In this document: positions 3,320 to 54,170 of the stretch, piece by piece
Numbering within the stretch: position 1 is the stretch's first letter
How the letters are laid out: every line of letters begins with the position of its first letter
Source: a virus
Length of the DNA: 54,170 nt
Reading direction: 5' to 3' (one strand)
Virus record (IMG/VR): IMGVR_UViG_3300030098_002069
Coordinates: 19,072-73,241 of that record
The notes under the pieces: generated by a model
What the model was told of the DNA's origin: nothing
Database searches by the model: none
The model's input: the letters and a program-made list of their open reading frames with translations, nothing else
Translations under genes and position numbers: made by a program

Positions 3320-6300
3320 TTATTTAACATCTGTACTTCTATTGGTTTCACCCTTACTATAACCATTTGGATCAGCGTTTGGTGGTGATTTTAAGTCTCC
3401 TGCGTCTGCGTTTTGTGGAGAACCATGATTTGAATTACTTGACCTATCATATATAGTGCTTATTGAGTCAGATAATCCTGTTGACGCATCTAAAGCACCC
3501 ATTGCCCAATAACCAACTAAGTTATCTGAGTAGCTATCAAGTAAATTAGTGTGCCTACCTGCTGTTTTAATTGCAGAAATATCTAATTCTGAAAGTGCTT
3601 TATTCCAAATCCCAACATTTGCTATATAACCATCCCATTGATTTAACCCTGTATTATTATCATTTATTCCTATAGTAGGATTTGCATTTGCAGTTGGATT
3701 TGCTAATGTTCCTGTAACTGATAATGTTTGTGATACTCCATTAATGTATATTTTTGCATTAGTACCATCCCAAGTAGCCGATAAATGAATCCACTCATTT
3801 TCTGGACTTACCCATGAACCATCTGGTGTATCAGCATAATTACCATCTCCATTGACATGAAGTCTTACTTTTCCACTTGAATTATTATATACTCCAAACC
3901 AGATAGCTGTAGAATTAGATGCGTATATAGCACTATAATCAGTACCACTTGCATGAGTATCATATACCCAAGCACTAATCGTAAAACTACCCGATGGAGA
4001 GTTTCCTGTTAATTGAATATATTCATTACTACCATCCAAGTCTATGTAGTTATATGCAGAGTTTATCCCTATGAGAGAGGATTGGTCTGGCAGAACTGAT
4101 GAATAAGTTAAGTTATCTGTAGCCATCGAGGTCATTGTGCCGACATTGCCTTGTATTTCTTTGAGAGCAATATTTGTTATAGTGCCTCTAAAACCTGTAG
4201 AGCGAAATGTTAAGAGATTTGCACTACTTGATGAACTTGATAATAGGTATTGAGTATGTGAACCAACACTATCTGGTATTGAGCCACTAAAAGCTGAACT
4301 ACCACCACTATGTGCTAAACCACTTGCTGTTTGAGTGGCGATAGTATATGTTAATTTATATAGCGTACTTACAGAGAAACCACTAATATTAAAAAAACCA
4401 TACCCATTAACCGCAAAAGTTAAAATGTCATTTGTAAAACTATTCCCTGTTCCTGTAACGCTATTTAAACTTGTTAATTCTGCTCCTAAAGTGGGGTTAG
4501 CTACATCAATTAAAGCAGGGTAAGTGTCACTTAGGTCTGCTGATTGTAGGACTTGCTTAACTGACCAACTATCAATATATATTGCCTCTGATGCACTAAC
4601 TCCACTCATAGAAATATGGTTTGTAGTAGCACTTGAGGCAGTAAAATAATAAGTAAATGTTTGAAACGATGTATTAGTGACTATTTGAGTTTGAAGATGA
4701 TTTGATGCGTCATCTCTAACAATTAACCCAATAGAGTCACCACTATCTACTTTTGCACTAATTTCAACCTTATAAGTATTACCTACAACAATAGCAGTTG
4801 AACCAAAATCATAACTATCTAAAAAATAATTATATGCTCCTGTTGCTGTTGCTCCTGTAACCTTTAAAGCACCATTGTCATTAGTAAGTGTATTACTTCC
4901 TTGTTTTTTCCATCCGTATGTATCGGTATTTTCTTCAGAGCCACTACCAAGATAAGTACCACCTACTTTTAGTGTACTTGCATCAGCATCTACTAACTCT
5001 ACACCCAACTCTTCTGAGCTACTCTCAAATGAACCCATATCATAACCTGCGACCATTTGCTCTTGAATATCATCAGATGCACCATTTGTAATCGTACCAT
5101 CATTTGAGTTAGAACTTGAATCTGCTATGGTAGGATATGCTTTACTTGTGTCATCGCCCATTAACCATAACCCTACTAATCCTGTATCAGCACTTGGGTT
5201 ATGTGTAATACCTTTTTGGTATTGAGCGTAAATAAAATCAGCATCTTTAGCATCTGAATAAATTGCTACAGAACTTATAGAGCCTGTTAAATTACTCCAC
5301 CCACTTGCTCCACCGATTTGAAACACATTACTTGAATAGGTTATAGAATCAGTATAAGAATCTGTACCTTTAAGTTCTCCATCTAAATAAATCTTTATAT
5401 TGCTCTTATCGTAAGTACCTACTAAGTGATGCCACACCCCTGTAGAACTCATTGGTGTTTCAGCGTGATTAGAACCCCATGAATTAATCGCAAATATAAT
5501 ATTATCTGCATTATCCATAGCTAATCTCCACCCATTACTACCTGTATCTGTATTACCAACAACTAAATCATAATCTTCAAGAGATGTAAAGTTTACCCAA
5601 GCAGATACAGTAATTGCCTCGGTTGGAGATACAGCAGAGGATGTAGTCATAGCAATTACAGGATTTGTACCATCAAAATCCACTACAGAGAACATTGCTT
5701 GTCTTTGTGGCAAGAATCGACTCTTGCTTAGTTGTTTTATAGTTTGCGAATCGAGTGCCGTTTTGTAAATACCAACCGAACTTATATCCCCCTCATAATA
5801 AGTGCTATCTGTTGCATGTTTACCGATTAATAAATCTGCATCATCACCAGATATTGTAAAAGTAGCTGTGCCAGAGGCAACTCCATCTATGTAAAATATA
5901 CTGCCATCTGTAACTCCACTATCAATAGTAATCGCAATATGTTGCCATCTATCTTTTGTAAGTGAACCAGATGATGCAGTAGCAGTAGAGCCATCATAAA
6001 ATTTTAACTTTGGTGTAGAATCATCAGATAAATAAAATTGATAATTAGTACCACCTGCATCTCTTTTATATACAAGTGGTCTATGAGAGGTAGTGCCTGT
6101 AGGATTTATCCATCCTGTGATAGTCATGTCACCTGCTAATTGTAAAGAACTATCATTGCCACAATCCACATATTCTGAACCTGTACCATCAAATGCAGTA
6201 TAAAAGTCACTTCTGGCGATTGAGGTATCTTCTTCTGGGAGTACCTTATCCCCTGCTCTGAGCCATAGTTTAAGTGTAGAACTTCTATCTGCAACATAAG

Positions 6301-6868
6301 AAGATGCTTTGGATAGGTCTGATGGTTTAGAAGCCATTTTAGCAATAGTGGTTTCATCCAGTGCGTATGCCCAGACTGCTACTTCATCAATGAGTCCTGT
6401 AAATGGTAAATCTCCATCACCCTCTGAGCCAATTACTAATGATTGGTCTACATTAGCTAAATTTGCGGGAACTGATGATGTCGTAGTGCCTTGCAAACTT
6501 CCATCTACATATACTTTAACAGAAGTACCTGCATCATAAACACAAGCTATATGATGCCAATTATTATCACTTAAATCTGTATCGCCCTCCGCATTGATAC
6601 CACTTGAATTAACAGTAAATTTTAAATATCCTGTAGAACCGCTTACTTGTATATACCACCCAATAGAGCTACCCCACTTAGTGATAAACCGAGTTGATTT
6701 AGCACTAGTCTTAATCCAAGCTGTGACTGTCATATCTCCTGTAATTTGGAGAGGTGCAGTATTTTCACAACTTAAATAATCATTAGAACCATCGAAATTG
6801 AAAGAGTATTTGTTGGGGAACTTTTGTATTACCCCACCTTTTGTTAGTAGGTTGCCTAAGCCAAGCAT
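3320..6868 (-). CDS. receptor-binding/tail-fibre protein with four LamG domains
   Basis: 1182 residues. Four concanavalin-A-like LamG domains can be read at about 20-165, 220-370, 390-550 and 940-1090, each starting with an aromatic-DFDG or LDG motif and containing W[IVL]....TG and H[HIL].[AVG]T[YW]D elements. Between the third and fourth lie two beta-rich carbohydrate-binding-like segments (about 610-760 and 780-905). The family binds glycans, so cell-surface recognition is likely. The gene lies between capsid/adaptor genes and the small-membrane-protein ladder. The part from about residue 510 onward has a mosaic paralogue at 52189-54170, with near-identical linkers around unrelated binding cassettes. 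Confidence 0.8.
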   Translation of the reverse strand: MLGLGNLLTKGGVIQKFPNKYSFNFDGSNDYLSCENTAPLQITGDMTVTAWIKTSAKSTRFITKWGSSIGWYIQVSGSTGYLKFTVNSSGINAEGDTDLSDNNWHHIACVYDAGTSVKVYVDGSLQGTTTSSVPANLANVDQSLVIGSEGDGDLPFTGLIDEVAVWAYALDETTIAKMASKPSDLSKASSYVADRSSTLKLWLRAGDKVLPEEDTSIARSDFYTAFDGTGSEYVDCGNDSSLQLAGDMTITGWINPTGTTSHRPLVYKRDAGGTNYQFYLSDDSTPKLKFYDGSTATASSGSLTKDRWQHIAITIDSGVTDGSIFYIDGVASGTATFTISGDDADLLIGKHATDSTYYEGDISSVGIYKTALDSQTIKQLSKSRFLPQRQAMFSVVDFDGTNPVIAMTTSSAVSPTEAITVSAWVNFTSLEDYDLVVGNTDTGSNGWRLAMDNADNIIFAINSWGSNHAETPMSSTGVWHHLVGTYDKSNIKIYLDGELKGTDSYTDSITYSSNVFQIGGASGWSNLTGSISSVAIYSDAKDADFIYAQYQKGITHNPSADTGLVGLWLMGDDTSKAYPTIADSSSNSNDGTITNGASDDIQEQMVAGYDMGSFESSSEELGVELVDADASTLKVGGTYLGSGSEENTDTYGWKKQGSNTLTNDNGALKVTGATATGAYNYFLDSYDFGSTAIVVGNTYKVEISAKVDSGDSIGLIVRDDASNHLQTQIVTNTSFQTFTYYFTASSATTNHISMSGVSASEAIYIDSWSVKQVLQSADLSDTYPALIDVANPTLGAELTSLNSVTGTGNSFTNDILTFAVNGYGFFNISGFSVSTLYKLTYTIATQTASGLAHSGGSSAFSGSIPDSVGSHTQYLLSSSSSSANLLTFRSTGFRGTITNIALKEIQGNVGTMTSMATDNLTYSSVLPDQSSLIGINSAYNYIDLDGSNEYIQLTGNSPSGSFTISAWVYDTHASGTDYSAIYASNSTAIWFGVYNNSSGKVRLHVNGDGNYADTPDGSWVSPENEWIHLSATWDGTNAKIYINGVSQTLSVTGTLANPTANANPTIGINDNNTGLNQWDGYIANVGIWNKALSELDISAIKTAGRHTNLLDSYSDNLVGYWAMGALDASTGLSDSISTIYDRSSNSNHGSPQNADAGDLKSPPNADPNGYSKGETNRSTDVK

Positions 6869-32819: not shown

Positions 32820-33717
32820 ACTGATCTCCGAAAAATATATCTCCTAAGTTTGGATCCCAATCTCCAAACCAATTACCTTGTTTATATATATTGTCAGGTA
32901 ACCAACCTTCCCCTCTTTTAATCCAAGGTACGTTGTTTTGCAACCATCCACGAACACCCCTAACAGCTTTACGACCAGCTTCTCCACCAGTTGGTTTTGA
33001 TGGCATATTATCATACTTCATTGGAAAATCGTGGTCTACTAATTGACCCCTCATACCTAGTGGCATATTTTCTAACCAAGGCTTACCAATGTTTCTTTCA
33101 AATTCAACATCTGTTGTCATTGGGTGATAAGGATGATCTTTATTGTAAATTTGTTTTAAAAATGTTTCAGCATCATCACCATATTTTTTATGAGCTTGTT
33201 TTTCAGTTGGATAAGCACCCGCTGGTAACCAACCACGTGCTGCTTTATCAGCTTTATCATAAGAAGTTAATTCTGGAACCCTACCTTTATCACCTAATGT
33301 ATGACCCATAACTTCATGCCAAAATTCATGAGGTACAACATCTGAATCTCTACCAGCATATCTAGGATTAATTAATATTCTTGCTGTATCAGTAGGAGCT
33401 GTTCTTGGCGTATAATAACCACCAGTTGTTTTTGATAAATCACTTCCATGATAATGACCACCTCTTGTATTACCATAAGCATTATATGCATCATGATGCA
33501 TGTTTGCATACATTTTTAATCTACCAGCATCAAATTCTTTTCTAATATCTGTAACCTTACTATCTAATCCTAAGTCATCTAAATATTTTTGACCAGCATC
33601 TTCTGGTAAGGTATTTAAAAAAGCATCAACCCAAAGAGGAGAAACTTCACTTTTTTTTAAGTATTCTGGATATGGATAATCTTTACCCTGTTTCATTTTA
33701 TATGCACCATTAGCCAT
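32818..33717 (-). CDS. zincin-like metallopeptidase domain protein
   Basis: 299 residues. H130-E-F-W-H134 makes an HExxH zinc-protease site, with GH at 138-139 and a YAGRDSDVVP strand before it. The N-terminal third has an ALEY-like helical region and LNTLPEDAG, and the C-terminus is aromatic (WFGDWDPNLGDIFFGD). It starts at the stop of the 3028-aa gene and is last in the late operon. Metallopeptidase domains occur in phage polyvalent proteins, so it may be ejected or process a partner. Activity inferred. Confidence 0.6.
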   Translation of the reverse strand: MANGAYKMKQGKDYPYPEYLKKSEVSPLWVDAFLNTLPEDAGQKYLDDLGLDSKVTDIRKEFDAGRLKMYANMHHDAYNAYGNTRGGHYHGSDLSKTTGGYYTPRTAPTDTARILINPRYAGRDSDVVPHEFWHEVMGHTLGDKGRVPELTSYDKADKAARGWLPAGAYPTEKQAHKKYGDDAETFLKQIYNKDHPYHPMTTDVEFERNIGKPWLENMPLGMRGQLVDHDFPMKYDNMPSKPTGGEAGRKAVRGVRGWLQNNVPWIKRGEGWLPDNIYKQGNWFGDWDPNLGDIFFGDQ

Positions 33718-36700
33718 TATGATTCTCCTAACATTTCTTCTATTTGTTCTTGCTGCAAACCTCTACGTTCAGCTCTTCTAAGTCTACTTCTAGCTGCATT
33801 AACTGGAAGCCTAAGTGTTATTTCACCTACACGCTCTGGACTTTCAACAAGTTGTTTAATTTGTCGTATACCTCTACCAAAAGGAAACATAGTATATGCT
33901 GTATAACTACTAAACTTTTCCCAATCACCAGTCAACAATTCCCATGCTGCATCTGGTATTCTAGCAATTGGTGGCTTTAACAAGTTTAAAGCCCCTAGTT
34001 TAGAGCCAAAGAAAGCCATGTCACGTTCTCTTTTGTCTCCATATAACGAATCTGCAATAGATTGTATTGTATCTAATGGAGGTGCTAGTGCAGTATCAAA
34101 AATACTAAACATAAATGCACTACCCATTGCAAACATAAACATATCTATTGTATATATATCCTTAAATCTTTCGTATTCAGGTGTACCTTTCCTGAAACCA
34201 TATAACTTAGCTTGTCTGTAAAACTCTTTACGTACTCTTATAGAGTTCCAAACAAAAAGCTTGAATCTTGATAAAACTTTACCCATAGCAGTACGCATAA
34301 AAGCAGGTCTTGCTGAGTTCTGATATAAAAATTGAGTATTCTCTATGCCACGCATAGCCATATCAAAAACAAAGTCATCTTTTATAGATAGTTCTCTACC
34401 TTCTACACCATATCTATTAATAGTTTGTATAGCATGTGCGGTAAAAGCATTTAAACGATTGACTTTTTCTGAGTGCTGCATAAAAAATGAACCATATTTT
34501 ATCATAAGGTCTTTTACACCATACCTATCAATTACCTCTAATACAGTTTCTTCACCCTTACCTCTACCACTTTTCATAGCTTTAGTAATATCACGCTGTA
34601 TATCTTTGATATTTACACCAGCTTTCTTTAAACCAGATGTTAAATCTGTGTTTACCTCAAATTCATTCTGTATAAAGTTGTCTATAACACCACGTTCTTC
34701 AAGATACTGAAGTAATTCTTTTTTAGTCTTAGCATATTTGCCATTGTTTAATTTAATTACTGGCTTACCATCTGCATCAGATAACAGTCTTTTATATATC
34801 TGTTTATCACTAAATGATCTAAAAAAGTTACGCACCCCTGCACTACCAGCAGTCATAGCGTTACCACTAAATATATTAGTAGCCCACGTGCCTGTATTCG
34901 CCAGTAAACTCATTAACTGATACTGAGCCTCCATTCTACCAAATTCGTGGATTTTACGGCTAAAATACTCGATTCTAGCCTCCTTATCAACAGGAGCGTT
35001 CTTTATAAAAGGTGGTTTCCATCCTTTTCTCTCATATAAGTACTCATATCCTCTCACCATACTCTCATCAGAAGTTAAATAGAACAGGTTTTTCCTGTCT
35101 CTAAGCTTTAAAGGGTCTATCCCTTCTGTCATTCTAGTATTAAAATAAGATTGATGTCCTAAAATACTTTGCATATAAAGTCTAATGTAATCAGCCCAAA
35201 CTTCTGGGTAGCTTTTGTAAACACTACCATGTAATTTTAATTTTTCAGCTTTACTTACTTTATAACTTTTACTCATACCATGTAACATGTTATCAATTTC
35301 ATATTGACCTTTTATTGCAGTAGCATTCTTATAATAGCCTCTAATTATTTTATCCATATAATCAGTAAGTAAAACAGGTCGTTTATCGTAACCAACCATA
35401 TTAAATGCTCTGTCACGTAGTGGTGCTGGCATAGAACCCTGTTCATCAACAGTAACTTCTAGATCTTTTTCTGTAATTTTAGAAAAGTCAGCTAATAAAA
35501 TATCTTTTAAAGACAGGGAATCTCCCTGTTCCATAGCTTTATTCTCCATTTTATATTGCCATTTTTGTGCATTTTCAATTGCAACTTCTTCTTTTACACC
35601 ATTAGCAACGTCTTCAGCTATTCTTCTTTCTGTTTCAGTCTGTATCCATTCTTTAATTTCTCTACGTGCACCTTTATTGTATCCAAAATTCATATGGGGC
35701 ATGTATTCACTATATTCAAACTTGCCTATACTTTGATAATTCTTACGATTCTTTAAACGAAAATCTTTTAAATCTTTTATATTTTTTTTACCTTGAATTA
35801 GCTTTTCTAATTTGTATTCAAATTGATAACGCTTAAATCCTTCTGTACCAATTAAATTAATAATTTCAGGAGACTCAAGATTCTTTTCTATAACATTTAA
35901 TCTAAAATGTTTATGGTCAAACTGACCATCCTTATTCCATCTCATGTATTTATTTAATACACCACCTGTTTTTTTATACCAGCCATCAAAATCAGAATCT
36001 AATTCCCATTTACCTTGATTATCTGATACTTTATTTTGATACCTATCTTTAGTATAAATAAACTTATCTCCAACATGCTCAAAAAACTTAGTGACATGCT
36101 TGTCTAGTCCTTCTAGTTTTTTTAATTCCTTAACATCTGTAGGTCTATATCCCTCTTCTCTGTATCTAAATAGTTCTTTAAATAATCTATGTTGCTCTTT
36201 AGCACTAAAATTATTTAAGTAATTAGTAACAGGATCTAAGAATTTTTGACTAAAGTTTTTATCTTTAGTAATATGCATTTCTGCTCTTTGCCAATATTTA
36301 CCTATTGAACCAATAGGAGAAGTAAAATGATAAACAGGTTGCCATTCTAACCCCTTACTAGTCTTAACTAAACCATGATAAGCATAGTATGGTTTAAACA
36401 TACCCTTACTAGAAAGCTTTTCATCAACAAAACGTGGGTCTAGGTGCCAGTATTTGAGCTTAAACTTCAATCCATAGGGGTCTCTTATACCTTCTATGTA
36501 TTTATTTATAGCCATAACATCATCAAATGTTATAGTATCTGCTGACCTAGGCACACCCCCACCAGATAAAATACTAGTAAAATATTTAAACCATTCATTA
36601 AAGTTTTCAGAAAGTACCCTATGGTCTTCCATGTTTTTTCTAAACTCTTTTACTCCTTTAACCATATGGTCATTTAATGCCAGTAGGTTTAAGGCATCAG

Positions 36701-39700
36701 AATCTATAACCTCATTAATTGTCTCAAGCACAGGTTCATTCCTACGCTTTTCAACATCTAATTTAATCTTGACTCGATCTTCTGGTTTAGATTCTTTCAT
36801 AGATGTTCTTCTAAAAGTAAGATTTATTCTAGGCTTTCTGCCCTCTGTAGCCTTTGGTACAGAATGCAGGAATTGCTCTTGAGTCTCCCCTTGCATTATT
36901 AATAAATCATTTTCTTTTAAATTAATTCTATAGTCCCTACCACCTTTTTTAATACTGTGTAGATTAAATGGTACTTCAGCACCAAAACTAACAGATGCTA
37001 TAATAGGATTAGTACCTAACTCAGGTTCATTATCTGCATGTCTACCGATACTATCTTTTTCGTTCCTGTATTTATTGACAAGCACCGAATTGAATTTTAC
37101 TCCAGTAATATCTTCTATCTGTCTTTTTATTGCAAGTATCTCTGGTATCCAAGGCTTAGGAGGAATTGGTTCTTTACCAGAATATGAATAATCTGTACCC
37201 TTGTCTCCATAGTATGCAGTTAACCTAGGTTCTTTCCTACCACCTATTTCACCCTGTTCCCATTCAATAGCAGCATCAAGTTTCTTCATGTCTACATTTT
37301 TAATCTTATTAATAAGATGAAGAATCTTTTTATTCTCATATTCAACAATTTTCGATTCAGGGTTTCTTCTTTCAGATATTTTAATAGGATCAACTTTTAG
37401 TTGAATGTCTTTTGTTAAGGCTCTATCATACATCTCTTCCATCTTTTGATAGTACTCACGCTTTGCTTCAAAAGGTATATTGCTAGAACCATGAATTGTT
37501 TTATTGTGATTTACCTCAGGTAAGTCTGCTTTTACATTCTTTTGTCTATACCCTGTTATAGGACTAAGTAATAAAGCATGAAAATAATCTAACAATGGCT
37601 TAGGACTTATCCCATTTTTTACTGCAAGGTCACTAAGGTCTTTGTTAGCTCTTTCTATCTTAGCCTCAAGCTCTACTATTCTTCCATCAGCTTCTTCTTT
37701 GCTTTCAGGTCTATTACGCATGAAAGCTTTTATTTTATTCTGTCTCTCTACTACCTCTGGTATTAATTTAGAAGTTATATCACCTTTAATATTTTTATCA
37801 GCTAATTCTTTATGGATTCTAATAAAATGCTTATGTAGTAATTCTATTGTACCTAATTGTCCATAGGTCTTTCCTATGCTATCTAATACTCTATTAAAAT
37901 TATTTACTGCTGCAAGATTACTTATGTATCCTTGACTATTAATTAACATATTATCAATAAGGATTCCTAAATGCTTTTCAACAAATTGAGAAATTTCTTT
38001 TTCAGAATAGCTTTTTAATGCACCTGTTCTAGATATTTCTATAGGCAATCTTTCTTTTATTGTCTTATGCGATTCAATTATATCAGGAAATCTTAGGTTA
38101 TTAAGATTTATTCCCATATCATACATCTTATTAACTAAGCTGGGGATAACAGTTTTTAATGCTTTATCACCATGAATTTTACTTTTAACCCAATTAATAG
38201 TATGAGCCATGTCATGTAAACTCATAGAATCTTTTACATATAAATCTGATATTCTATATACAGCATTTTCTTTAGAGTTTCTATCTCTAGTAACTCTATA
38301 TCTAACATCGTTAATACTAGTATTAGCAGTTTCTCCAATTTCTAATCCAATAGAGTCTATAAAATCTAACGGAACAAAGAATTTGTTTTTTAAAGTCTTC
38401 TTACCAAACGTATCTGTTTTATAAATAAAGTCTTTTATTTTTTTTATACTTAAACTTTTAGGAGTAGAAAGAGGCTTTGCTACATTAATAGCATCTCTTA
38501 TTGCAGCTAAATGAGACTTGTTTCCCCATTCATTTATTTCTTTATATCCAAAATATCTATCACCATCTAGGTTAGAACCCATAACCTTTTCACCAGTAGT
38601 CTTACTATATACTTCTGTTTTAAAAGCAGAATCAAATAACATCCTTCTAAAATTAGGATAATCAATAACTGTTGGGTCATTACTTGCATCAGCAGATTTA
38701 TTAACAATAAGTGTACCTAAGTCTCTAAAGTATTGATCCCTTGTTTGTCCATTAACAAGACCATCTTTTAAACTAACTGTGGCTTCATATTCTTTACCAT
38801 TTACTCCTTTAAATGAAAAGGAATAATTACCACCATTTAATTTGACATAATCAATCCAGTTCTGCATTACTATCTTTGCAGAAAGACCATAGCCTAAACC
38901 ACCCTTGCCTTTATTTGAACCCTCTGCTACTTTATGTCTATAAGCTGGGGAAAATAAAAAGCTTCTAAAATATATATCATTACCTTCTTTATAACCTTTA
39001 TCTCCCTCTTGTAACTTATATCCCTTGTATCTCTGTATTTCATTTTCTGAAATATTAGGATCAGTAAATTCTTTTTCTAACCTATCTCTATACTCACCCT
39101 TTAAATGTGCTCTTTCACTAGCAACATCTTTAAATTTTTTAGTTAACTTATTAGAGAATCCTTGGAATATCTTAATACTGTCTGAGTCTTTATCTGCTCC
39201 ACCAAGATATACGTTGTCTTTGTGGTGGGTAAAGGATCCAGCACCTCTCTGCCCCGTAAAACCCCTAAAACGTAAGACACGTGTACCAGACATGCTGTCA
39301 GCAGGAGTACGAATAGCCAAGAGATTAAATGTCGTATTCCACTTTGCCACGTCAGGTTTTGACATCCCCTTATTATGGGATTTGCGATACTGCACCCAAG
39401 CTTCGCCCAACGTGACTGGCTCGTTCCTAATATCCAAATTAGTCTGTTTAACATCTATTCCTTTTTCAAATAATATATTTATTAAATCTTTTTCTGGTAT
39501 ATATCTATTATTAATAGGCATATTTCTAAAAGCCTCATCAAGATATACTTCTCCTTCACGGAGATTTCTTGTTTTTTTCTTAGGGTCTATATCTACATAC
39601 ATCATTTGGTCAGGTGTAAATGCCTTCAACCAAGATTTACCACCATGTTCTATATATGGATTAGAGAACCTACGAACAAGATACTTTTTGTATGCATTAT

Positions 39701-42700
39701 GCCAATTGTCTTTAAATAAAACATTACGAACAAGATATGTATCACGCATAGCCTCTGATAATAATTTATTTGTAGCATGGAACTGTTTATAATCTGCATT
39801 TGCATCAAACTCAAAGTCCATATCAAAGAAACCTTCCTTATCTAGCTTGTTTAGTTTATCCATAAACAAACGAGTTATCTTTGGTTCCTTGTTTTTTAAA
39901 ACATAATCACGAACAAACTCAAAAGGTATTTCCATTACCCCAAGGTCATGCTCATTCATTAACTTTATAAAACCCTTTACATCTTTTCCCTCTGTCTTTT
40001 CAAAAGCCCTAACAAGCTCCCTACCCCTAGCTGAACCAGCTAATGATGGTTCTATTACTTCTTTAAAATATTCTTTTGCAAATTCAGGAGCTTGTATTTC
40101 ATTTGACTGACCATATAACTGTATAGGTATTTCCTCACCTTTAATAGCCTTTACTACATTTTCAAACGTACCTGTACTTAATTGTAAATTATCTATAGGA
40201 AATTCATATATCTTTAATGGGTCTCTATTAAATAATTCTATTTGAGGTTTTTTAGTACCCCCTGTAGTCTCATACCAACCTTTTTTATACCCTATATCAC
40301 TTGTTTGATGTTCACCCCTTAGCTTTGCAGAACTATCAAAAACAAGAAAGTCTACATTATTGGCTTCCATAAACTTATCCCAAACCTCATTAGCACGCTG
40401 TCCATTTGATTTAGTAGCAAATGTTCCAAGATTAGTAGCACCAACTAATACTGGCTTGTAATGACCAGATTTAGGATCAAGTCCTATTGCATGTGCCCCC
40501 GCATCATAAAAAGCTTTTCTTATTATAATACCACCATCTGTATCACTAGATTCTTTTTCTTGATGTTTTGGTGCTGTGGTATTTATATCTTTTATAATTA
40601 CTACACGCATTAATCCATCAGGATTTGTTTTCTTAAAACTTAAAGGTGACAATGGAGTCATTCTATTAGAAAGTAACTGCATACGCTTATTAAAATCAGC
40701 AACGCTTTTACCATATCCCTTACCTAGTAATCTATGTAATTGATTTAAGTTAGGTGCATTAGGGTCTACTAATTTATTATTAGCAGCATGATGCATTACG
40801 TTAGAAATCCACTTACGCTCATGGTTACTATTCTCACCAAAAACACTTTTCTCAACTCTCTCTGAATGCTCATAAGATTTACGTATTGCCAATAATTTTA
40901 CATTATCTCCCTGTGATAAAGCTTCAAATATCATTTCTTTTGTAAGCTGTATATTGCCTAAGCTATCTGCATAGTTAGCAGTCATTAAGAAGTCTTTATC
41001 TTTAACACCACTATATATGTACTTGCCAGATTCATTTAATGCGTTCTGTACTAGCTTTAATCTGGCTGGACTTAGTTCAAATTTTACATTAGAACCATCA
41101 ATTCTATTTTTTAATATTTTAAATGGCTTACCATTTTCATCAATTCCATGAGTAAGAAATCTAAATCCCTTACCATAACCAATATATTCTAATGGTAGCT
41201 TATGGTATCTTTCCCCTATAGATACAGCACCTACTTGTTGATTATCTGCTGTTTCTACAGTAGCATATGTCTTACCATTACGCTTAGATAGTTTAATATA
41301 ATGTACTTTTTGTAAGGGCTCGACATCACTATGCCAATGTTGTCTTAGTTTTCTTTCATGTTTTTTAAATACTTTATCACCAAGAATGTTTTTCATTCTT
41401 TCTATAAAAACTTCTACTTGTGGATCTTGACCCTTTTTACCTAAACTTGCACTACGTGCCCCTTCCACAGCATCAGTAAAAGACTTTATATTTGTAAAAA
41501 TATCTTTTTCTATATCGTTATACATACGTTCAGATAATTGATTAACACGATTCCTCTTTAATACAACATCATCTGTAAAGTCAGATTGCTGACTATTATA
41601 TAACGCTTCTGAATTACTTATAGCATCCTGTATTCTCTCTATTAATCTAGTATCTATAGTATCCCTTGCTTTCTTTCTGTAATAAGAATGAATATCTTGT
41701 TCTTTAAAACTTTTTTCAGTCTTATTATAGTAATCTACAGCACGGTCTCTCCATTTGTATTCAGGAAAATGATGCTCTAAATAACCTAATGCTGAACCAG
41801 TAGAGCCTTTTAAACCCTCTGAGTTCTTAAAAGAAGGCATAGGGTGTTCTTCTATTATATATTTTCTAGTTTTTTTACTTAAATATTTAAAGTCTCTAGC
41901 AAGTTCTGGGTCTACTATATCTCGTATATCCCTAGAAAATCTTCCCTCTCCTTGCTTTTCTCCCAGCAGCCACTTACCAGCAGCAGCTTCATGTGCAGGT
42001 CTAGTATTATATCCAAAGAAACCACCTAGTAAATATTCATATATCTGCATTTCCGTAGGGTCACCACGTAATGTAGATGGGATTCCCATAAACATTGATG
42101 CAACACCAGCTCTAAGTCTTTTGTTAGCAGTATCTATTTGAGCAGGAGTACCCTTATATAGTTTACCTACTGATACAAAATTACCTATACCACCGAATGC
42201 ACCACCTGCTATAGCACCACCAACAAATGCATCAGCCATTATATCCTTACCCTTCCATACAGAACTAACAGCACTAGCAACACCAAGACCTAATGCTTCT
42301 TCAGTAATAGCTCTTGTCTTTGCACCTTTACGTAAAAAATCTAATGTTTCTAGTTTAGATTTATTTAAACTAACATCCATTAATTTTTTAGTACCCCTAG
42401 ATGCAATCATTGGAACTGCCATAGCATCTAAAGTATCTATACCAGATTGTATGGCTTTATAGAATCCTGTATTGCCAAATGGTTTTCTAAGAAGAGACAA
42501 TGGAGCTTTCATAATAGCTGGAGCAAACCCAGCAAGATGCCCCAATTGTCTAAAGATTGCTTCTCCAGTATTGCGTGGTTCTTTAGGGATGAGATCAAAT
42601 GTAGTTAATCCCTCAATAAACCCAGCTTGAGCCTGTTGCAATCCTCTTCTTAAACTAAAATCAGATTGCATTCTTTTGAATCTTATCTGATTAATTTCAG

Positions 42701-42803
42701 CAAGGTATTCTAGTTCATCTAACTGATCGTCAGAGAACATATCAGGGTTAGCCCTGTATGTGTTGATTAGGCTTTTTACTTTATAGCCTTCGTAACTAGC
42801 CAA
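33717..42803 (-). CDS. giant virion/ejection protein with RNA-polymerase-like and AlkB domains
   Basis: 3028 residues. Visible regions: N-terminal domain (1-110) shared with the 271-aa neighbour; Gly-rich hydrophobic helices (110-260); a first barrel-like region with DGGIII at 756-761 and FDSSAKLRG around K827; RTP at 1165-1167 and the acidic triad D1204-K-D1206-S-D1208, as in the second double-psi beta-barrel of single-chain RNA polymerases. An AlkB dioxygenase domain (about 1850-2005) has H1922-x-D1924, H1980, R1992 and R1998. The helical end (2550-3028) has a hydrophobic stretch at 2888-2904. It lies among ejection-protein genes, so it is probably packaged and injected. The AlkB call is firm; the polymerase call is a motif-level inference. 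Confidence 0.75.
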   Translation of the reverse strand: MASYEGYKVKSLINTYRANPDMFSDDQLDELEYLAEINQIRFKRMQSDFSLRRGLQQAQAGFIEGLTTFDLIPKEPRNTGEAIFRQLGHLAGFAPAIMKAPLSLLRKPFGNTGFYKAIQSGIDTLDAMAVPMIASRGTKKLMDVSLNKSKLETLDFLRKGAKTRAITEEALGLGVASAVSSVWKGKDIMADAFVGGAIAGGAFGGIGNFVSVGKLYKGTPAQIDTANKRLRAGVASMFMGIPSTLRGDPTEMQIYEYLLGGFFGYNTRPAHEAAAGKWLLGEKQGEGRFSRDIRDIVDPELARDFKYLSKKTRKYIIEEHPMPSFKNSEGLKGSTGSALGYLEHHFPEYKWRDRAVDYYNKTEKSFKEQDIHSYYRKKARDTIDTRLIERIQDAISNSEALYNSQQSDFTDDVVLKRNRVNQLSERMYNDIEKDIFTNIKSFTDAVEGARSASLGKKGQDPQVEVFIERMKNILGDKVFKKHERKLRQHWHSDVEPLQKVHYIKLSKRNGKTYATVETADNQQVGAVSIGERYHKLPLEYIGYGKGFRFLTHGIDENGKPFKILKNRIDGSNVKFELSPARLKLVQNALNESGKYIYSGVKDKDFLMTANYADSLGNIQLTKEMIFEALSQGDNVKLLAIRKSYEHSERVEKSVFGENSNHERKWISNVMHHAANNKLVDPNAPNLNQLHRLLGKGYGKSVADFNKRMQLLSNRMTPLSPLSFKKTNPDGLMRVVIIKDINTTAPKHQEKESSDTDGGIIIRKAFYDAGAHAIGLDPKSGHYKPVLVGATNLGTFATKSNGQRANEVWDKFMEANNVDFLVFDSSAKLRGEHQTSDIGYKKGWYETTGGTKKPQIELFNRDPLKIYEFPIDNLQLSTGTFENVVKAIKGEEIPIQLYGQSNEIQAPEFAKEYFKEVIEPSLAGSARGRELVRAFEKTEGKDVKGFIKLMNEHDLGVMEIPFEFVRDYVLKNKEPKITRLFMDKLNKLDKEGFFDMDFEFDANADYKQFHATNKLLSEAMRDTYLVRNVLFKDNWHNAYKKYLVRRFSNPYIEHGGKSWLKAFTPDQMMYVDIDPKKKTRNLREGEVYLDEAFRNMPINNRYIPEKDLINILFEKGIDVKQTNLDIRNEPVTLGEAWVQYRKSHNKGMSKPDVAKWNTTFNLLAIRTPADSMSGTRVLRFRGFTGQRGAGSFTHHKDNVYLGGADKDSDSIKIFQGFSNKLTKKFKDVASERAHLKGEYRDRLEKEFTDPNISENEIQRYKGYKLQEGDKGYKEGNDIYFRSFLFSPAYRHKVAEGSNKGKGGLGYGLSAKIVMQNWIDYVKLNGGNYSFSFKGVNGKEYEATVSLKDGLVNGQTRDQYFRDLGTLIVNKSADASNDPTVIDYPNFRRMLFDSAFKTEVYSKTTGEKVMGSNLDGDRYFGYKEINEWGNKSHLAAIRDAINVAKPLSTPKSLSIKKIKDFIYKTDTFGKKTLKNKFFVPLDFIDSIGLEIGETANTSINDVRYRVTRDRNSKENAVYRISDLYVKDSMSLHDMAHTINWVKSKIHGDKALKTVIPSLVNKMYDMGINLNNLRFPDIIESHKTIKERLPIEISRTGALKSYSEKEISQFVEKHLGILIDNMLINSQGYISNLAAVNNFNRVLDSIGKTYGQLGTIELLHKHFIRIHKELADKNIKGDITSKLIPEVVERQNKIKAFMRNRPESKEEADGRIVELEAKIERANKDLSDLAVKNGISPKPLLDYFHALLLSPITGYRQKNVKADLPEVNHNKTIHGSSNIPFEAKREYYQKMEEMYDRALTKDIQLKVDPIKISERRNPESKIVEYENKKILHLINKIKNVDMKKLDAAIEWEQGEIGGRKEPRLTAYYGDKGTDYSYSGKEPIPPKPWIPEILAIKRQIEDITGVKFNSVLVNKYRNEKDSIGRHADNEPELGTNPIIASVSFGAEVPFNLHSIKKGGRDYRINLKENDLLIMQGETQEQFLHSVPKATEGRKPRINLTFRRTSMKESKPEDRVKIKLDVEKRRNEPVLETINEVIDSDALNLLALNDHMVKGVKEFRKNMEDHRVLSENFNEWFKYFTSILSGGGVPRSADTITFDDVMAINKYIEGIRDPYGLKFKLKYWHLDPRFVDEKLSSKGMFKPYYAYHGLVKTSKGLEWQPVYHFTSPIGSIGKYWQRAEMHITKDKNFSQKFLDPVTNYLNNFSAKEQHRLFKELFRYREEGYRPTDVKELKKLEGLDKHVTKFFEHVGDKFIYTKDRYQNKVSDNQGKWELDSDFDGWYKKTGGVLNKYMRWNKDGQFDHKHFRLNVIEKNLESPEIINLIGTEGFKRYQFEYKLEKLIQGKKNIKDLKDFRLKNRKNYQSIGKFEYSEYMPHMNFGYNKGARREIKEWIQTETERRIAEDVANGVKEEVAIENAQKWQYKMENKAMEQGDSLSLKDILLADFSKITEKDLEVTVDEQGSMPAPLRDRAFNMVGYDKRPVLLTDYMDKIIRGYYKNATAIKGQYEIDNMLHGMSKSYKVSKAEKLKLHGSVYKSYPEVWADYIRLYMQSILGHQSYFNTRMTEGIDPLKLRDRKNLFYLTSDESMVRGYEYLYERKGWKPPFIKNAPVDKEARIEYFSRKIHEFGRMEAQYQLMSLLANTGTWATNIFSGNAMTAGSAGVRNFFRSFSDKQIYKRLLSDADGKPVIKLNNGKYAKTKKELLQYLEERGVIDNFIQNEFEVNTDLTSGLKKAGVNIKDIQRDITKAMKSGRGKGEETVLEVIDRYGVKDLMIKYGSFFMQHSEKVNRLNAFTAHAIQTINRYGVEGRELSIKDDFVFDMAMRGIENTQFLYQNSARPAFMRTAMGKVLSRFKLFVWNSIRVRKEFYRQAKLYGFRKGTPEYERFKDIYTIDMFMFAMGSAFMFSIFDTALAPPLDTIQSIADSLYGDKRERDMAFFGSKLGALNLLKPPIARIPDAAWELLTGDWEKFSSYTAYTMFPFGRGIRQIKQLVESPERVGEITLRLPVNAARSRLRRAERRGLQQEQIEEMLGES

Positions 42804-49037: not shown

Positions 49038-49418
49038 TCATCCTCTAATTTCTACATGAACTAAGTCATCAAAAGAGTTATCTTTTATTTCGCCGTCACT
49101 ATCCCAGTCGCCTCCCCAGCGAATATTGACTCCCATTTGTTTTCCTATGCCTCTAACCATTCCACCCATATAGTGAAACCGTTCTCTATCTTCCCAATCA
49201 ATTGGGTAGGGAGCTAAGTCAACTGCTTTTCCTTCTAAGTGTTTACTGTACTTTGTCTTTGACTTTCCTTGAGCTACCAGTTCTATTTGTCTAGCCTCTG
49301 TTCTCAAGCCCTCAATAATAGTAACATCCATTATCTTTATCAGCTCATTCAGAACATTTACGAGTTCTGGCTTAACTCCCTTTAATCTTTCTTTAGATCT
49401 TTTTCCAAATCTAGGCAT
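49038..49418 (-). CDS. M15-type murein peptidase (endolysin)
   Basis: 126 residues from ATG 49418, which overlaps the previous stop (TAATG); an upstream ATG at 49430 lies inside the preceding gene. S59-K-H60-L-E-G-K-A-V-D67 is the SxHxxGxAxD zinc motif of the VanY/L-Ala-D-Glu endopeptidase family, with the third ligand H121 in LVHVEI. It cuts cell-wall peptides at lysis. No signal peptide, so it needs the adjacent small membrane proteins for release. Confidence 0.85.
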   Translation of the reverse strand: MPRFGKRSKERLKGVKPELVNVLNELIKIMDVTIIEGLRTEARQIELVAQGKSKTKYSKHLEGKAVDLAPYPIDWEDRERFHYMGGMVRGIGKQMGVNIRWGGDWDSDGEIKDNSFDDLVHVEIRG

Positions 49419-49651
49419 TAGAATTTCCAAACAAGTTTAACTGCAGCAGATAGTACATCCATACATTCTTTTGCAATAGCTTGTTGTTCTGCTTTACTTA
49501 TCTTACCATCTTTAGATGCTTCATGGTATTTCTCAGCTACTTCCTTAATCTCTTTCAAGATTATTCTATACTTAGTAGCTACCATAGTAGCCATACCACC
49601 AAGTATTATTGCAAGTAAGTATGCTGCGTTTTCTAAGTTTAACCAGTCCAT
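49418..49651 (-). CDS. small membrane protein, holin candidate (right copy)
   Basis: 77 residues: one transmembrane helix (AYLLAIILGGMATMVATKYR), then the DGKISKAEQQAIAKECMDV helix and WKF end, clearly homologous to 1096-1329. Directly upstream of the M15 endolysin with a stop/start overlap, the classic place for a holin. Confidence 0.65.
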   Translation of the reverse strand: MDWLNLENAAYLLAIILGGMATMVATKYRIILKEIKEVAEKYHEASKDGKISKAEQQAIAKECMDVLSAAVKLVWKF

Positions 49652-50382: not shown

Positions 50383-50648
50383 TATTTACTTTTCATTGTT
50401 AAGTCAATATAAACTTTCAAATCAGACTTAATTTCTGCGTTCCACTTTTTTATCTTACCAAGTTCATTCATAATAATATCCATACGGTGCTGCAAGTTTT
50501 CGTGTTTTTCATCAAATCTTTTTAAGGTATCTTCTACCTTTTCTTTTAAGATAAATCTTACTACGCTATATAATGCAAAAGCTAAACCAACACTAAGAGA
50601 AATTGGAAATCCTAATTCTTGTATTAATGTTATAACCTCAGAAGTCAT
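50382..50648 (-). CDS. membrane-anchored coiled-coil protein (right copy)
   Basis: 88 residues, paralogue of 2059-2325 with about six substitutions. Transmembrane helix near 14-33 and an unchanged coiled coil. Four-base overlap with the 112-aa gene. Confidence 0.7.
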   Translation of the reverse strand: MTSEVITLIQELGFPISLSVGLAFALYSVVRFILKEKVEDTLKRFDEKHENLQHRMDIIMNELGKIKKWNAEIKSDLKVYIDLTMKSK

Positions 50649-50983
50649 TTCTTTTTTCTTTTCCAGCTAAATGGATTTAGATTTAATTCTTTTTCAAAGA
50701 ACGATATACGCTCTTCCATAGCTTCTCTTTCTTTTTGTTCTTCTTTCATGTGCTTATCGACAAGCTCTGTAATTCTGGTATCAGCAAGTTCCATTCCTCG
50801 CTCAAGTTCTGCAAGTCTATTTTCAATTCGTAAGTAGCCCAGCACAATAAAAGCAACTGCCACGATAATTTGCCCAAGCCACTTAATATTAAGACTAATA
50901 CGAAAGTTATCATCAATCTTTGCCATTCCATATGACCTGTATGTCTTAGGCTTTTCACTCACTTCTTCTTTACTTTTTCCCAA
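50645..50983 (-). CDS. inner-membrane spanin-like coiled-coil protein (right copy)
   Basis: 112 residues, paralogue of 2378-2719 (shared EVSEKPKT.RSY, NIKWLGQ, ELNLNP.SW). Transmembrane helix at about 36-54, then coiled coil and basic tail. The start overlaps the lipoprotein gene by 25 bases. A spanin-like pair is suggested as in the left module. Confidence 0.6.
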   Translation of the reverse strand: MGKSKEEVSEKPKTYRSYGMAKIDDNFRISLNIKWLGQIIVAVAFIVLGYLRIENRLAELERGMELADTRITELVDKHMKEEQKEREAMEERISFFEKELNLNPFSWKRKKK

Positions 50984-51234
50984 CGCTCATGCCTATGACA
51001 CCAATTATCACCAACTAATATTCCCCCTTGAATAGTCGTTCTTATATACCAATGCTTTGTACTGTCTTGATCTGTTATAATCATAAAGTCTGTCTTAATA
51101 GAATCTGTTGGAGAAATATCTACTCCAGCTATTGCCCACCCCCCATTACAACTAGATAAAGTCATTACAATGAGAAGAATACTAATAAGCATTAGTAACC
51201 AACCACCTAGTAATATTTTTTCATTCTTTTTCAA
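50959..51234 (-). CDS. small lipoprotein, outer-spanin-like (right copy)
   Basis: 91 residues with a hydrophobic leader ending TLSSC, a good lipobox with Cys near residue 29, and a mature part including DFMIITDQDSTKHWYI shared with the left copy. Signal-peptidase-II processing and outer-membrane anchoring are likely. Four-base overlap with the pilin-like gene. Confidence 0.65.
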   Translation of the reverse strand: MKKNEKILLGGWLLMLISILLIVMTLSSCNGGWAIAGVDISPTDSIKTDFMIITDQDSTKHWYIRTTIQGGILVGDNWCHRHERWEKVKKK

Positions 51235-51776
51235 GGCTTATAATATTTATAAAAATCTTCAGGGTTTTCTTTATCTATCACTACAAAGATTGGAGATACA
51301 ATACTATTCCCAGTCCCAGAACCGCCAATAATGGCATATTGATAACCACCATCTTGGTAAGGAGATTTGATGGTATCATTGTCAAACAAGTGTAAAAAAC
51401 TCGTGTCATCAAATACTGGTACAAATTCTGCATCTGCTAATTCTTCTATTTCGATTCTTCTGTTGTTATTGTCATCTACTAAAACTCCAATACTGCTTGT
51501 TCTATGTACCTGACTGGGAAACCTTCCCATACCATTTACTTCAACTTGTTGGTTGTACCACATGGAAGATGCTTTAGTAATCTTTTCAAGATTGGCTCTT
51601 GTTTGTTTTGCTTTAGCACCTTCACCGATACGACTAAAAGCAGGAGCTGCGGTAGTAGCCAAAGTAGCCATGATAGCCATTGTAACAGCAAATTCTGCAA
51701 GACTATTACCCTTGTTATTGCAAATACAAAAAAAGATACAGGCACATTTTTTATTCAATTTCTGTAGTCCACTCAC
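51231..51776 (-). CDS. type IV pilin-like protein
   Basis: 181 residues. The N-terminus reads a basic leader, then G23 followed by N24-S-L-A-E28-F-A-V and a hydrophobic helix (MAIMATLATTAAPAF). This is the prepilin-peptidase cleavage pattern with Glu at +5. The rest is a short globular domain with Asp/Asn-rich stretches. Absent from the left module. Overlaps the 141-aa gene by 26 bases. It may mimic or block host pili, or be a co-opted structural protein. The pilin motif is clear; the role is open. Confidence 0.7.
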   Translation of the reverse strand: MSGLQKLNKKCACIFFCICNNKGNSLAEFAVTMAIMATLATTAAPAFSRIGEGAKAKQTRANLEKITKASSMWYNQQVEVNGMGRFPSQVHRTSSIGVLVDDNNNRRIEIEELADAEFVPVFDDTSFLHLFDNDTIKSPYQDGGYQYAIIGGSGTGNSIVSPIFVVIDKENPEDFYKYYKP

Positions 51777-52176
51777 TTTTAGCTAATTCAGTCATAATCT
51801 GTGCATGAGAGTATTTAGTATAAGAACTAAATACATCTGGATCATTATCTGGATCGTTATCACAAGCAAACTTCAATAGTGCTTTAGAACTATCTCCATC
51901 ATCTCCATTGTTCTTACGCAATGTTTCTTTACCAGATTGTATCGCATTATCTATTAACGCATTCGATACAGGAATAGCTTCTAATAGCTCTGATTTGCTC
52001 ATAGAGCCTGTATAATCATAACCATAACTATCCATCCATGTTTTTATCTGTGCGACTGTATTTGAGTCTGTTGGAGCATCTGCTGAATCAATATCTGCTA
52101 CAGGCACAATTAAGTATGCCCTACCTGCCCAACGACCACTATAGTCATCAGACCATCTATTTGTTTCTTCACTCAT
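51751..52176 (-). CDS. conserved hypothetical with HeH/LEM-like insert (right copy)
   Basis: 141 residues, paralogue of 2981-3307. Residues 38-68 (NTVAQIKTWMDSYGYDYTG, SMSKSELLEAI) have the helix-extended-loop-helix pattern of phage HeH/LEM domains, which bind DNA or partners. The rest is almost identical to the left copy. It follows the LamG gene as in the left module. Confidence 0.65.
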   Translation of the reverse strand: MSEETNRWSDDYSGRWAGRAYLIVPVADIDSADAPTDSNTVAQIKTWMDSYGYDYTGSMSKSELLEAIPVSNALIDNAIQSGKETLRKNNGDDGDSSKALLKFACDNDPDNDPDVFSSYTKYSHAQIMTELAKSEWTTEIE

Positions 52177-52188
52177 ATTATTTTCCTT

Positions 52189-54170
52189 TTATTTAACATC
52201 TGTACTTCTATTGGTATCACCTTTGCTATAGCCACTACTTGGATTAGCGTTTGGTGGTGATTTTAAGTCTCCTGTGGCACTACCAGAAGTTGTACCATGT
52301 ACGCTATTACCACTTCTATCGTATATAGTGCTATCTGTGTCTGCAAGACCTGTAATAGCATCCAATGCTCCAAAAGCGTAGTAATTTTTTAAATTGTCAC
52401 CATAGCTATCTAATAGATTAGAATGTCTATTTGCGTTGTATATTGCAGATATTTCTGATGCAATTAATTCCTTATTATGTATAGCAAAATTAGAAAAACT
52501 GGCATCGATCCAATAACTACCAGAGAAATATGTTCCTATCTGATTATATGTCCAAGTTTGGTCATAAGCACCTGCTGAAGATTTATCCTCTGTATCTGTT
52601 AAAGAGCCATTGACATAACATTTAAATATTTTTGCGTTTCTTGTAATTGCAAAATGAAACCACTCACTATGTGGTGGGTTAGAATTTGAAAATTCAATAG
52701 CAGTTAGACCTTGAAAGTCGATTGCCAAATCTTTTGTAGTTTGAGTTATAAATAAGTAATTTAATTTAGTACCAGAATTAGAATCACCAAAAAATACTTT
52801 TAAATCTTCATCTGCTCTATTCATCCACCCACTTATAGTAAAATCTCCTGTTAAAGATTGTTGACTTGATAAAGTTACTTTTGCATCTACTCCATCCAAA
52901 TCTAAAAAGTTATACGGACTTGAGTTCCCGACCAAAAAGGATTGGTCTGGCAGAACTGATGAATAAGTTAAGTTATCTGTAGCCATCGAGGTCATTGTGC
53001 CGACATTGCCTTTTACTTCCTTGAAAGATATATCATCAAGGTATTGGGTTACTCCATTTGTTCCTTGTTGGAAATAAATATTAGAAGATGCACCTCCACC
53101 TAAAATAAGGACATACCTTATAATATTTACCCATTTACCCGATGCTATAGTTATAGTTTCATCCATATTCCACCCAGAACCACCACCCCGTATTATTTTA
53201 ACTCTTATATCTGTATCAGATGGAGAATAAACCATAAAATTTAATTTATATAGCTTACTAATTGTTGTATTAAAGGTACTTGAACCGACAATATATCCAT
53301 CTGTACTTGTAGTTGTAAATTTTCTTGATGTAGTTCCACTAAAGGCATAATCAGTAGATTCTGAAGTTGTTGCATTTACTCCTGTCCAAGAAGTAGGAGC
53401 TAATTCTGCTCCTAAAGTGGGGTTAGCTACATCAATTATGGCAGGGTAAGTGTCACTTACTTCTGATTGGAGGACTGGTTTAATAGTAAAATTACTTATA
53501 TTGCCTACAAAACTTGATGATTGAATATAAAAATAGGCATTGCCAGATTGTGTTTTATAAAATGTGTAGCTCCCTGTAGTTGACATAGAAGCTGTATTCC
53601 CAGTATTTCCCACTAAGAAATTAAATGAACCAGAAACAGCAACTACATCTAAAGTTATTTTATATAATTGACCAGAACTTAGAGAACTTTGATATGTGTA
53701 AATAGTTCCAGTTGTATCAAATTCTAACCTATTTAATGATGTATTAATTTCAACACCAGTACCTAAAGACCAATCACCACCTGAACTAAAATCTGTATTA
53801 GAAAGTGGAGTACCACCCAACTCTTCTGTACTATTCTCAAATGCACCCATGTCATAACCTGCAACCATTTGCTGTACTATGTCATCTACTGCACCATTTG
53901 TGATCGTACCATCATTTGAGTTAGAACTTGAATCTGCTATGGTAGGATAAACTGCACTTGTGTCATCGCCCATTAACCATAACCCTACTAATCCTGTATC
54001 AGCACTTGGGTTGTGTGTAATACCTTTTTGGTATTGAGCGTAAATAAAATCAGCATCTTTAGCATCTGAATAAATTGCTACAGAACTTATAGAGCCTGTT
54101 AAGTTACTCCACCCACTTGCTCCACCGATTTGAAACACATTACTTGAATAGGTTATAGAATCAGTATAAG
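52189..54170 (-). CDS. second LamG receptor-binding protein, 5' truncated by window edge
   Basis: The frame is open to the end of the window; an apparent start near 54138 is only the GTG codon of a conserved valine. It matches the 1182-aa LamG protein from about residue 500 to the end. Shared blocks (DTGLVGLWLMGDD, DTYPA.IDVANPTLGAEL, GNVGTMTSMATDNLTYSS, the GDLKSPPNA tail) flank different binding cassettes, including a new LamG domain (about 52430-52910). It probably recognises a different or altered receptor. Confidence 0.75.
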   Translation of the reverse strand, partial: YTDSITYSSNVFQIGGASGWSNLTGSISSVAIYSDAKDADFIYAQYQKGITHNPSADTGLVGLWLMGDDTSAVYPTIADSSSNSNDGTITNGAVDDIVQQMVAGYDMGAFENSTEELGGTPLSNTDFSSGGDWSLGTGVEINTSLNRLEFDTTGTIYTYQSSLSSGQLYKITLDVVAVSGSFNFLVGNTGNTASMSTTGSYTFYKTQSGNAYFYIQSSSFVGNISNFTIKPVLQSEVSDTYPAIIDVANPTLGAELAPTSWTGVNATTSESTDYAFSGTTSRKFTTTSTDGYIVGSSTFNTTISKLYKLNFMVYSPSDTDIRVKIIRGGGSGWNMDETITIASGKWVNIIRYVLILGGGASSNIYFQQGTNGVTQYLDDISFKEVKGNVGTMTSMATDNLTYSSVLPDQSFLVGNSSPYNFLDLDGVDAKVTLSSQQSLTGDFTISGWMNRADEDLKVFFGDSNSGTKLNYLFITQTTKDLAIDFQGLTAIEFSNSNPPHSEWFHFAITRNAKIFKCYVNGSLTDTEDKSSAGAYDQTWTYNQIGTYFSGSYWIDASFSNFAIHNKELIASEISAIYNANRHSNLLDSYGDNLKNYYAFGALDAITGLADTDSTIYDRSGNSVHGTTSGSATGDLKSPPNANPSSGYSKGDTNRSTDVK

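Follow-up and report, generated by a model that had tools for sequence, protein, structure and literature searches.

It is well established that some phages use type IV pili and that some block them. Aqs1, Tip and PfsE, encoded by Pseudomonas phages, act on the host type IV pilus, as described in PMC8764522. Pilin genes of the phages' own are, as far as we found, known from annotation only. Synechococcus phage ACG-2014f, a marine tailed phage, carries a prepilin-like gene annotated as 'pilin' (PHROG 3433), and the 8 kb of it that we read contain no annotated pilus machinery. Prepilin-like ORFs without a name occur in two Vibrio phages; phage pilins are therefore a kind already known by annotation. 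Putative Marinimicrobia viruses are mentioned in PMC9948707, and none of the papers listed in our search of open-licence PubMed Central dealt with phage-encoded pilins of such viruses. The locus described here lies in a 54,170-base stretch of DNA (the window), which corresponds to bases 19072–73241 of a 73,241-base virus record.

A prepilin-like ORF in the window

A sequence-only reading of the window had proposed a phage pilin, with a leader ending in Gly, the residues N-S-L-A-E-F and a hydrophobic helix. All three elements were confirmed in the ORF at 51231–51776, whose translation reads VSGLQKLNKKCACIFFCICNNKG/NSLAEFAVTMAIMATLATTAAPAFSRIGEGAK..., the mature chain starting with NSLAEFAVTMAIMATLATTAAPAFSRIGEGAK. 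Its features are as follows.

51231–51776, minus strand: phage prepilin ORF, 181 codons, GTG start, alternative TTG at codon 7
51708–51776, minus strand: class III leader, 23 residues, ending ...NNKG, including a Cys-rich insert, KKCACIFFCICN
51234–51707, minus strand: mature pilin, 158 aa, with E5 and P22 kept, a helix at 2–58 and C-terminal strands
51441–51476, minus strand (positions derived from those of the ORF): EF-hand-like loop D-x-N-x-N-R-R-I-E-x-x-E, mature residues 78–89

We scanned six frames of the window for a start codon followed by Gly or Ala, the pattern x-small-hydrophobic-x-Glu-hydrophobic and 14 hydrophobic residues. This ORF was the sole match, and the chance rate of the signature was 0.008 per proteome (residue-shuffled window proteins; 74 proteins, 500 shuffles). 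There are two candidate starts, GTG at −23 and TTG at −17; most relatives allow leaders of 5–13 residues, within a range of 5 to more than 20. Some relatives have a Cys-rich leader insert like that at 51717–51752 (minus strand) and most lack one; MCSCIYNCIC occurs in others.

The Pfam N_methyl model scored 14.8 bits against the window pilin (E 0.021), below its gathering score of 21.2, and NCBIfam and PHROG matches were weak. The GNSLAEF pilins of the cellular pilus locus L084, described below, were likewise without a Pfam match at 0.05, which indicates that N_methyl misses this branch. N_methyl is a detection model and not a defining trait, and superfamily membership rests on other tests. We built a profile from 56 relatives, both phage and host, and compared it with PDB sequences; all five matches at E≤1 were type IV pilins, the best being M. 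xanthus PilA (E 0.0026). The AlphaFold2 model built from this 56-row alignment (pLDDT 81.4, pTM 0.69) has a predicted helix at residues 2–58 and three C-terminal strands, a pilin-like helix with a beta C-terminus; the earlier reading had proposed to look for the helix-plus-globular fold of pilins. A shallow alignment of 14 similar rows gave a pLDDT of 37.

Foldseek matched the model to no structure in PDB or BFVD at E≤0.001. In the VIA comparison, where all Z values were below 8, pilins or pseudopilins made up five of the best six rows: XcpV (Z 6.0, the highest, over 80 residues), Thermus PilA4 (5.6), GspI (5.5), M. xanthus PilA (3.7) and FimA (3.6), with an unrelated Hia fragment (3.9) in fourth place. 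The best full-length row was PilA4 (101 residues, 2.7 Å). E5 and P22 are features of assembly-competent pilins and serve assembly, and both were invariant in the 56-row alignment. The tip cap GspK has no E5, so that the retention of this residue here makes a GspK-like tip cap less likely. The signature and the predicted fold support the earlier reading of the ORF as a prepilin-like gene of the type IV class, lying among the late genes of a phage.

Neighbourhood and accessory slot

The placement of the gene in the late operon, made by the same reading, is supported by the tail (LamG), small membrane and endolysin genes that share its minus-strand operon. The pilin ORF shares 26 bases with the 141-aa ORF upstream of it and 4 with the lipoprotein-like ORF that follows. 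The neighbours are listed in the direction of the operon.

52189–54168, minus strand: LamG-repeat tail protein, 3′ part (the contig ends within the gene; whole in relative L002)
51751–52176, minus strand: 141-aa ORF directly upstream, overlapping the pilin start; PHROG 12526, function unknown, 1.5e-7
50959–51234, minus strand: lipoprotein-like ORF directly downstream, with a lipobox-like ...LSSC
50645–50983, minus strand: 112-aa single-TM protein, the most constant neighbour
49038–49430, minus strand: endolysin of the lysis cassette; phrog_465, 6.7e-45

The LamG assignment comes from scoring the left copy of the tail gene (3320–6868). A 106-aa ORF near the pilin gave a weak match to an Rz-like spanin. 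The 3028-aa protein at 33717–42803 (minus strand) has an AlkB-like alkylated-DNA-repair domain in its C-terminal half (phrog_21963, 9e-23).

Eighty loci with the 112-aa TM neighbour were compared. The pilin was present in 47 and absent from 18, and 15 were too short; absence was scored only with more than 1.5 kb upstream, so that 65 loci were informative. Since 18 of the 65 do without it, the pilin is not essential. Ten of these 18 have a 96–97-aa integral membrane protein before the lipoprotein and TM genes (e.g. L128:5463–5756, plus strand). The pilin site, with tail genes on one side and lysis genes on the other, is an accessory slot of a kind in which morons usually reside. An ORF similar to the 96–97-aa protein was also seen in L192 (4492–4785), one of the larger phages described below, and in another of these, L190, a homologue of the 112-aa protein adjoins the pilin too.

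Two phages in one record

The record carries two terminase/portal/capsid sets and two LamG-to-lysis modules. What reads, from the translations, as the second terminase, portal and capsid lies in its first 19 kb. The corresponding comparison site in the window is:

2697–3307, minus strand: left module, largely another phage's, where no pilin separates the 108-aa protein from the lipoprotein

That the pilin occurs in the right module only, as the sequence-only reading had stated, is literally true of the sequence but misleading, because the left module comes from another phage fused into the record. Relatives of the left lysozyme (L268–L273) place the left lysis module, and the methylase genes with it, in a different type of phage. 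In L002, an 18-kb contig, the capsid, LamG, 108-aa, pilin, lipoprotein and endolysin genes stand in one line; L003 and L004 match this gene order, and L049 matches it from LamG on. The left module is accordingly assigned to another phage at least from about window position 2980 downwards. Because the left 108-aa gene shares 96% identity with its counterpart in L002, the crossover point is placed only approximately. We considered a real duplication within one genome and rejected it, as L268–L273 and L002 assign the two modules to different phages. The simplest account is an assembly fusion that joined two phages within or close to the LamG genes; the record may instead be a natural recombinant of the two.

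Conservation of the phage pilin

A protein scan of IMG/VR found at least 88 relatives of the window pilin, of which 80 were kept for reading; one of them, L001, is 99% identical to it. The motif G-x-S-L/M-x-E-F was present in all 80, and none was without G(−1) or E(+5), the residues at which the earlier reading had suggested comparing relatives. The mature length was 158 in 78 of the 80, that is in all complete copies, the other two ending at a contig end. Among 62 distinct full-length sequences, 81 of 158 columns were invariant, the lowest pairwise identity was 67%, and positions 1, 5, 6, 7 and 12 of the EF-hand-like loop were identical in every one.

The median dN/dS of these small-phage pilins was 0.13 (highest pair 0.40; 1565 usable pairs), with 0.09 for the first 54 codons versus 0.15 for the remainder; the values are rough because dS is high. 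They indicate that the phage pilin is under purifying selection, its head domain included.

Cellular source and age of the capture

We scanned 84,980 bacterial and archaeal species genomes and found eight cellular loci that match the pilin, labelled Ca. Marinimicrobia, Neomarinimicrobiota, unclassified marine MAGs and, in one case, Euryarchaeota. This search for the closest bacterial pilin, which had been suggested as a guide to the host, points to Ca. Marinimicrobia. Identity to the window pilin was 32–41% over full length in seven loci, and L089 matched in two pieces. In L084, the one locus whose pilB-pilC-pilD cluster was annotated, the GNSLAEF pilins adjoin a Peptidase_A24 prepilin peptidase (4e-34), a PilB/GspE T2SSE ATPase (9e-128) and a PilC/GspF T2SSF protein (4e-57), and the cluster also contains a run of FTLIEL-type pilins. 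At the end of this operon stands an 829-aa protein with a LamG domain (L084:17574–20063, plus strand), a domain type shared with the phage tail protein beside the pilin; this may be coincidence.

Of 245 Marinimicrobia genomes, 33 contained a match at E≤1e-3, and in 17 of these the match reached E≤2.5e-13. As a control we took the phylum of G008, the genome labelled Euryarchaeota; one of its 243 genomes matched, namely G008 itself, whose contig may therefore be misbinned. The G008 locus (L090) has a Marinimicrobia-like array of GNSLAEF pilins, as would be seen in what is probably a misbinned contig.

Over mature residues 1–36 the window pilin was identical to four host pilins at 28–30 of 36 positions, and over the remainder at 34–41%. 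We built a tree of 14 phage and 28 host pilins, with host ORFs lacking SLAEF/SLMEF/TLAELVVTT or shorter than 130 aa left out; the small-phage rows, here and in a second tree described below, were 14 representatives of the 62 distinct sequences. The phage copies formed one clade (100/100), the stem of which measured 2.3 changes per site in this tree and 1.8–2.3 across the two. A single clade on so long a stem argues for an old capture, and the suggestion of a recently captured host gene did not hold: the 14 copies are diverse, and their median dN/dS speaks of sustained purifying selection. On this evidence, the small-phage pilin is judged to have been captured long ago from a host pilin of the Ca. 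Marinimicrobia type.

Relatives of the phage portal were present in three of the 245 Marinimicrobia genomes (19–31% identity by piece) and relatives of Gp23 in six. Two contigs in these assemblies, L289 (G147:C27) and L291 (G174:C49), carry related phage genes, among them those for the 112-aa TM protein (53–57%) and for a Gp23 that shares 65% identity with its counterpart in one of the large phages with a pilin. As a host link these phage genes are suggestive only, co-binning being possible. The putative assignment of the host to Marinimicrobia thus draws on homology and on phage-like, possibly co-binned contigs in its assemblies.

Multi-pilin cassettes in larger phages

Scanning IMG/VR with the host pilins gave 172 relatives, of which we kept 80 (L188–L267). 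These are phages other than the small-phage group, on contigs of up to 132 kb. In 74 of the 80 loci, two to four ORFs with the prepilin signature stand in a row (two in 38, three in 10, four in 26); at the six single-pilin loci the stored DNA stops within about 100 bases after the pilin or inside it. The extra pilins of L192 scored above the Pfam N_methyl cut-off, and the FTLIEL pilins of these phages matched PHROG 3433 (2.6e-8). When four of the phages were compared with L084, their second pilins were 57–63% identical to its host pilins over about 134–147 aligned residues. Baseplate wedge, SbcC-like and head protease genes adjoin some of the pilins. Gp23 was found in 5 and terminase in 7 of the 38 records tested out of the 80, many records being fragments.

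In a 66-sequence tree, with 25 large-phage rows chosen by similarity <0.85 and L107 left out for its long branch, the large-phage pilins fell in at least two places among the host pilins (three label changes, with long-branch warnings). This scatter suggests that phages took pilins more than once, and a repeated capture appears probable as far as the tree can tell. Carriage of two to four pilins by the large phages fits a rebuilding of the pilus at least as well as its spoiling.

Two further proteins were seen at these loci. A conserved, apparently secreted protein of about 130–200 aa and unknown function lies near the pilins in 61 of the 80. Directly upstream of the pilins stands a 211-aa protein (L192:6755–7390, plus strand, and 16 similar ORFs), which weakly resembled the N-terminus of host PilB in blastp (38.6% over 44 residues, E 0.028), with TM-like and coiled-coil-like parts following; Pfam did not list MshEN for it. 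It is possible that this protein acts as a motor decoy.

Pilus machinery and lysogeny

We searched 33 phage records, the window's own included, for the assembly ATPase (PF00437, T2SSE) and the prepilin peptidase (PF01478, Peptidase_A24), and none had either above cut-off. Sub-threshold ATPase matches in 10 phage records resembled ordinary P-loop proteins. Any use of the pilin must therefore run via the host machinery. A tyrosine integrase was found in four of the 33 records, all among the 11 small relatives tested and L001 being one of them. Lysogeny and exclusion are thus possible, and some of the small pilin phages may be temperate.

Discussion

We propose, as an account that we hold at a little below an even chance, that the window gene is a true prepilin, captured long ago from a Marinimicrobia-type source and retained across a large group of small marine phages, whose product is processed by the host and built into the host pilus, where it changes a receptor. 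The pilin would be transcribed late, with the tail and lysis genes. Host PilD would then cleave and insert the phage prepilin, as the kept G/N site, which matches that of the host pilins, suggests. Host PilB and PilC would build it into the host type IV pilus; the retention of E5 and P22 and the lack of motors of the phage's own point to this step. The resulting filament would bear a surface chosen by the phage, made of a 158-aa subunit with a shortened head and an EF-hand-like loop. In the last and least certain step, the pilus would be changed or masked as a receptor, so that other phages could not adsorb to the infected or lysogenic cell. Our data suggest that viruses sharing this pilin may reshape the surface fibres of their host during infection. 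A wider version, in which at least two unrelated groups of Marinimicrobia phages repeatedly took host pilins, the larger phages whole cassettes of two to four, and in which a virus-specified pilus driven by the host's motors gates infection or attachment, is conceivable but rather doubtful.

The pilin might instead be a dominant-negative poison that enters the membrane pool and the platform and stalls or caps growth, the loss of pili bringing about superinfection exclusion. Known phage proteins do block pili, via PilB (Aqs1, Tip) or PilC (PfsE), according to PMC8764522, and in the 10 pilin-less loci noted above another small membrane protein occupies the pilin slot. A poison, however, would hardly explain invariant E5 and P22, purifying selection that extends to the head domain, or several pilins per large phage, more than a poison needs; we consider this reading unlikely. 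We think it quite unlikely, too, that the phage pilins serve upkeep, replacing or boosting the host pilus like an auxiliary gene so that the cell stays suspended, attached or ungrazed until lysis. The large phages do carry a near-set of host-like pilins, as their second pilins illustrate, PHROG classes the pilin as moron/auxiliary, and pili protect marine picocyanobacteria from sinking and grazing (PMC7994388). The small-phage subunit, in contrast, stands far from that of the host, on its long stem and with a shorter head, and is therefore no plain substitute for a host pilin.

Its position beside the lipoprotein, the TM and coiled-coil ORFs (among them the weakly Rz-like 106-aa ORF) and the endolysin would also suit a pseudopilus or envelope role in lysis or release, exercised with these small membrane proteins. 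This is distinctly improbable, given that the 18 informative relatives without a pilin keep the neighbouring small membrane genes and that the neighbours of the large-phage cassettes are mostly different. A pilin packed in the tail or fibre as an aid to adsorption would fit a gene that comes after the LamG tail gene of the late operon, but the prepilin leader directs the protein to the inner membrane, and we know of no phage assembly path for such a prepilin; a virion part is very improbable. That the record is itself a fusion of two phages could raise the suspicion of host DNA or an assembly artefact, a bacterial pilin gene fused into a viral contig. This is scarcely credible: the phage copies form a clade of their own, and the same phage gene order with the pilin in independent contigs (e.g. 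L002, L003, L004 and L049) refutes it.

The trait is common and conserved, has more than one origin by the tree, and is tied to a major uncultured ocean phylum (Marinimicrobia, SAR406). Should the pilins indeed enter host pili, they would offer a direct and testable example of a filament on the host surface being rebuilt by a virus. As a marker, the GNSLAEF signature could serve to link marine viral contigs to Marinimicrobia hosts.

Comparison with known systems

The GNSLAEF pilins of Marinimicrobia, also called Fidelibacterota (e.g. in L084, L083 and L089), come closest: they have the same G/N cleavage site and nearly the same first 36 mature residues, and have in common with the phage copies a C-terminal motif, SPYQDG..Y..V..G.GSG...P...V.D.ENP....K...P. 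The host leaders are mostly 15–25 residues long and basic, and the host mature chain is about 40–85 residues longer than that of the phage; the EF-hand-like loop and the separate long-stem clade stand on the phage side. T2SS pseudopilins (XcpV/GspI) gave the best VIA row but differ in that the nearest sequence relatives of the phage pilin are those of the Marinimicrobia pilus operon.

Cyanophage ACG-2014f likewise has a prepilin-like gene in a marine tailed phage. Its pilin, a match retrieved with a large phage's second pilin as the query, differs in being of the FTLIEL type, single and near photosynthesis genes. PHROG 3433 was not listed for the window pilin at E≤0.1, and in tblastn neither the window pilin nor a GNSLAEF pilin from a large phage matched any of 50,697 phage records. 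Aqs1, Tip and PfsE bind PilB or PilC and are not pilins, whereas a phage pilin would act by substitution. What is new beside these systems, as far as we found, is the Marinimicrobia-type pilin family, together with how old and how constant it is, and the cassettes of several pilins.
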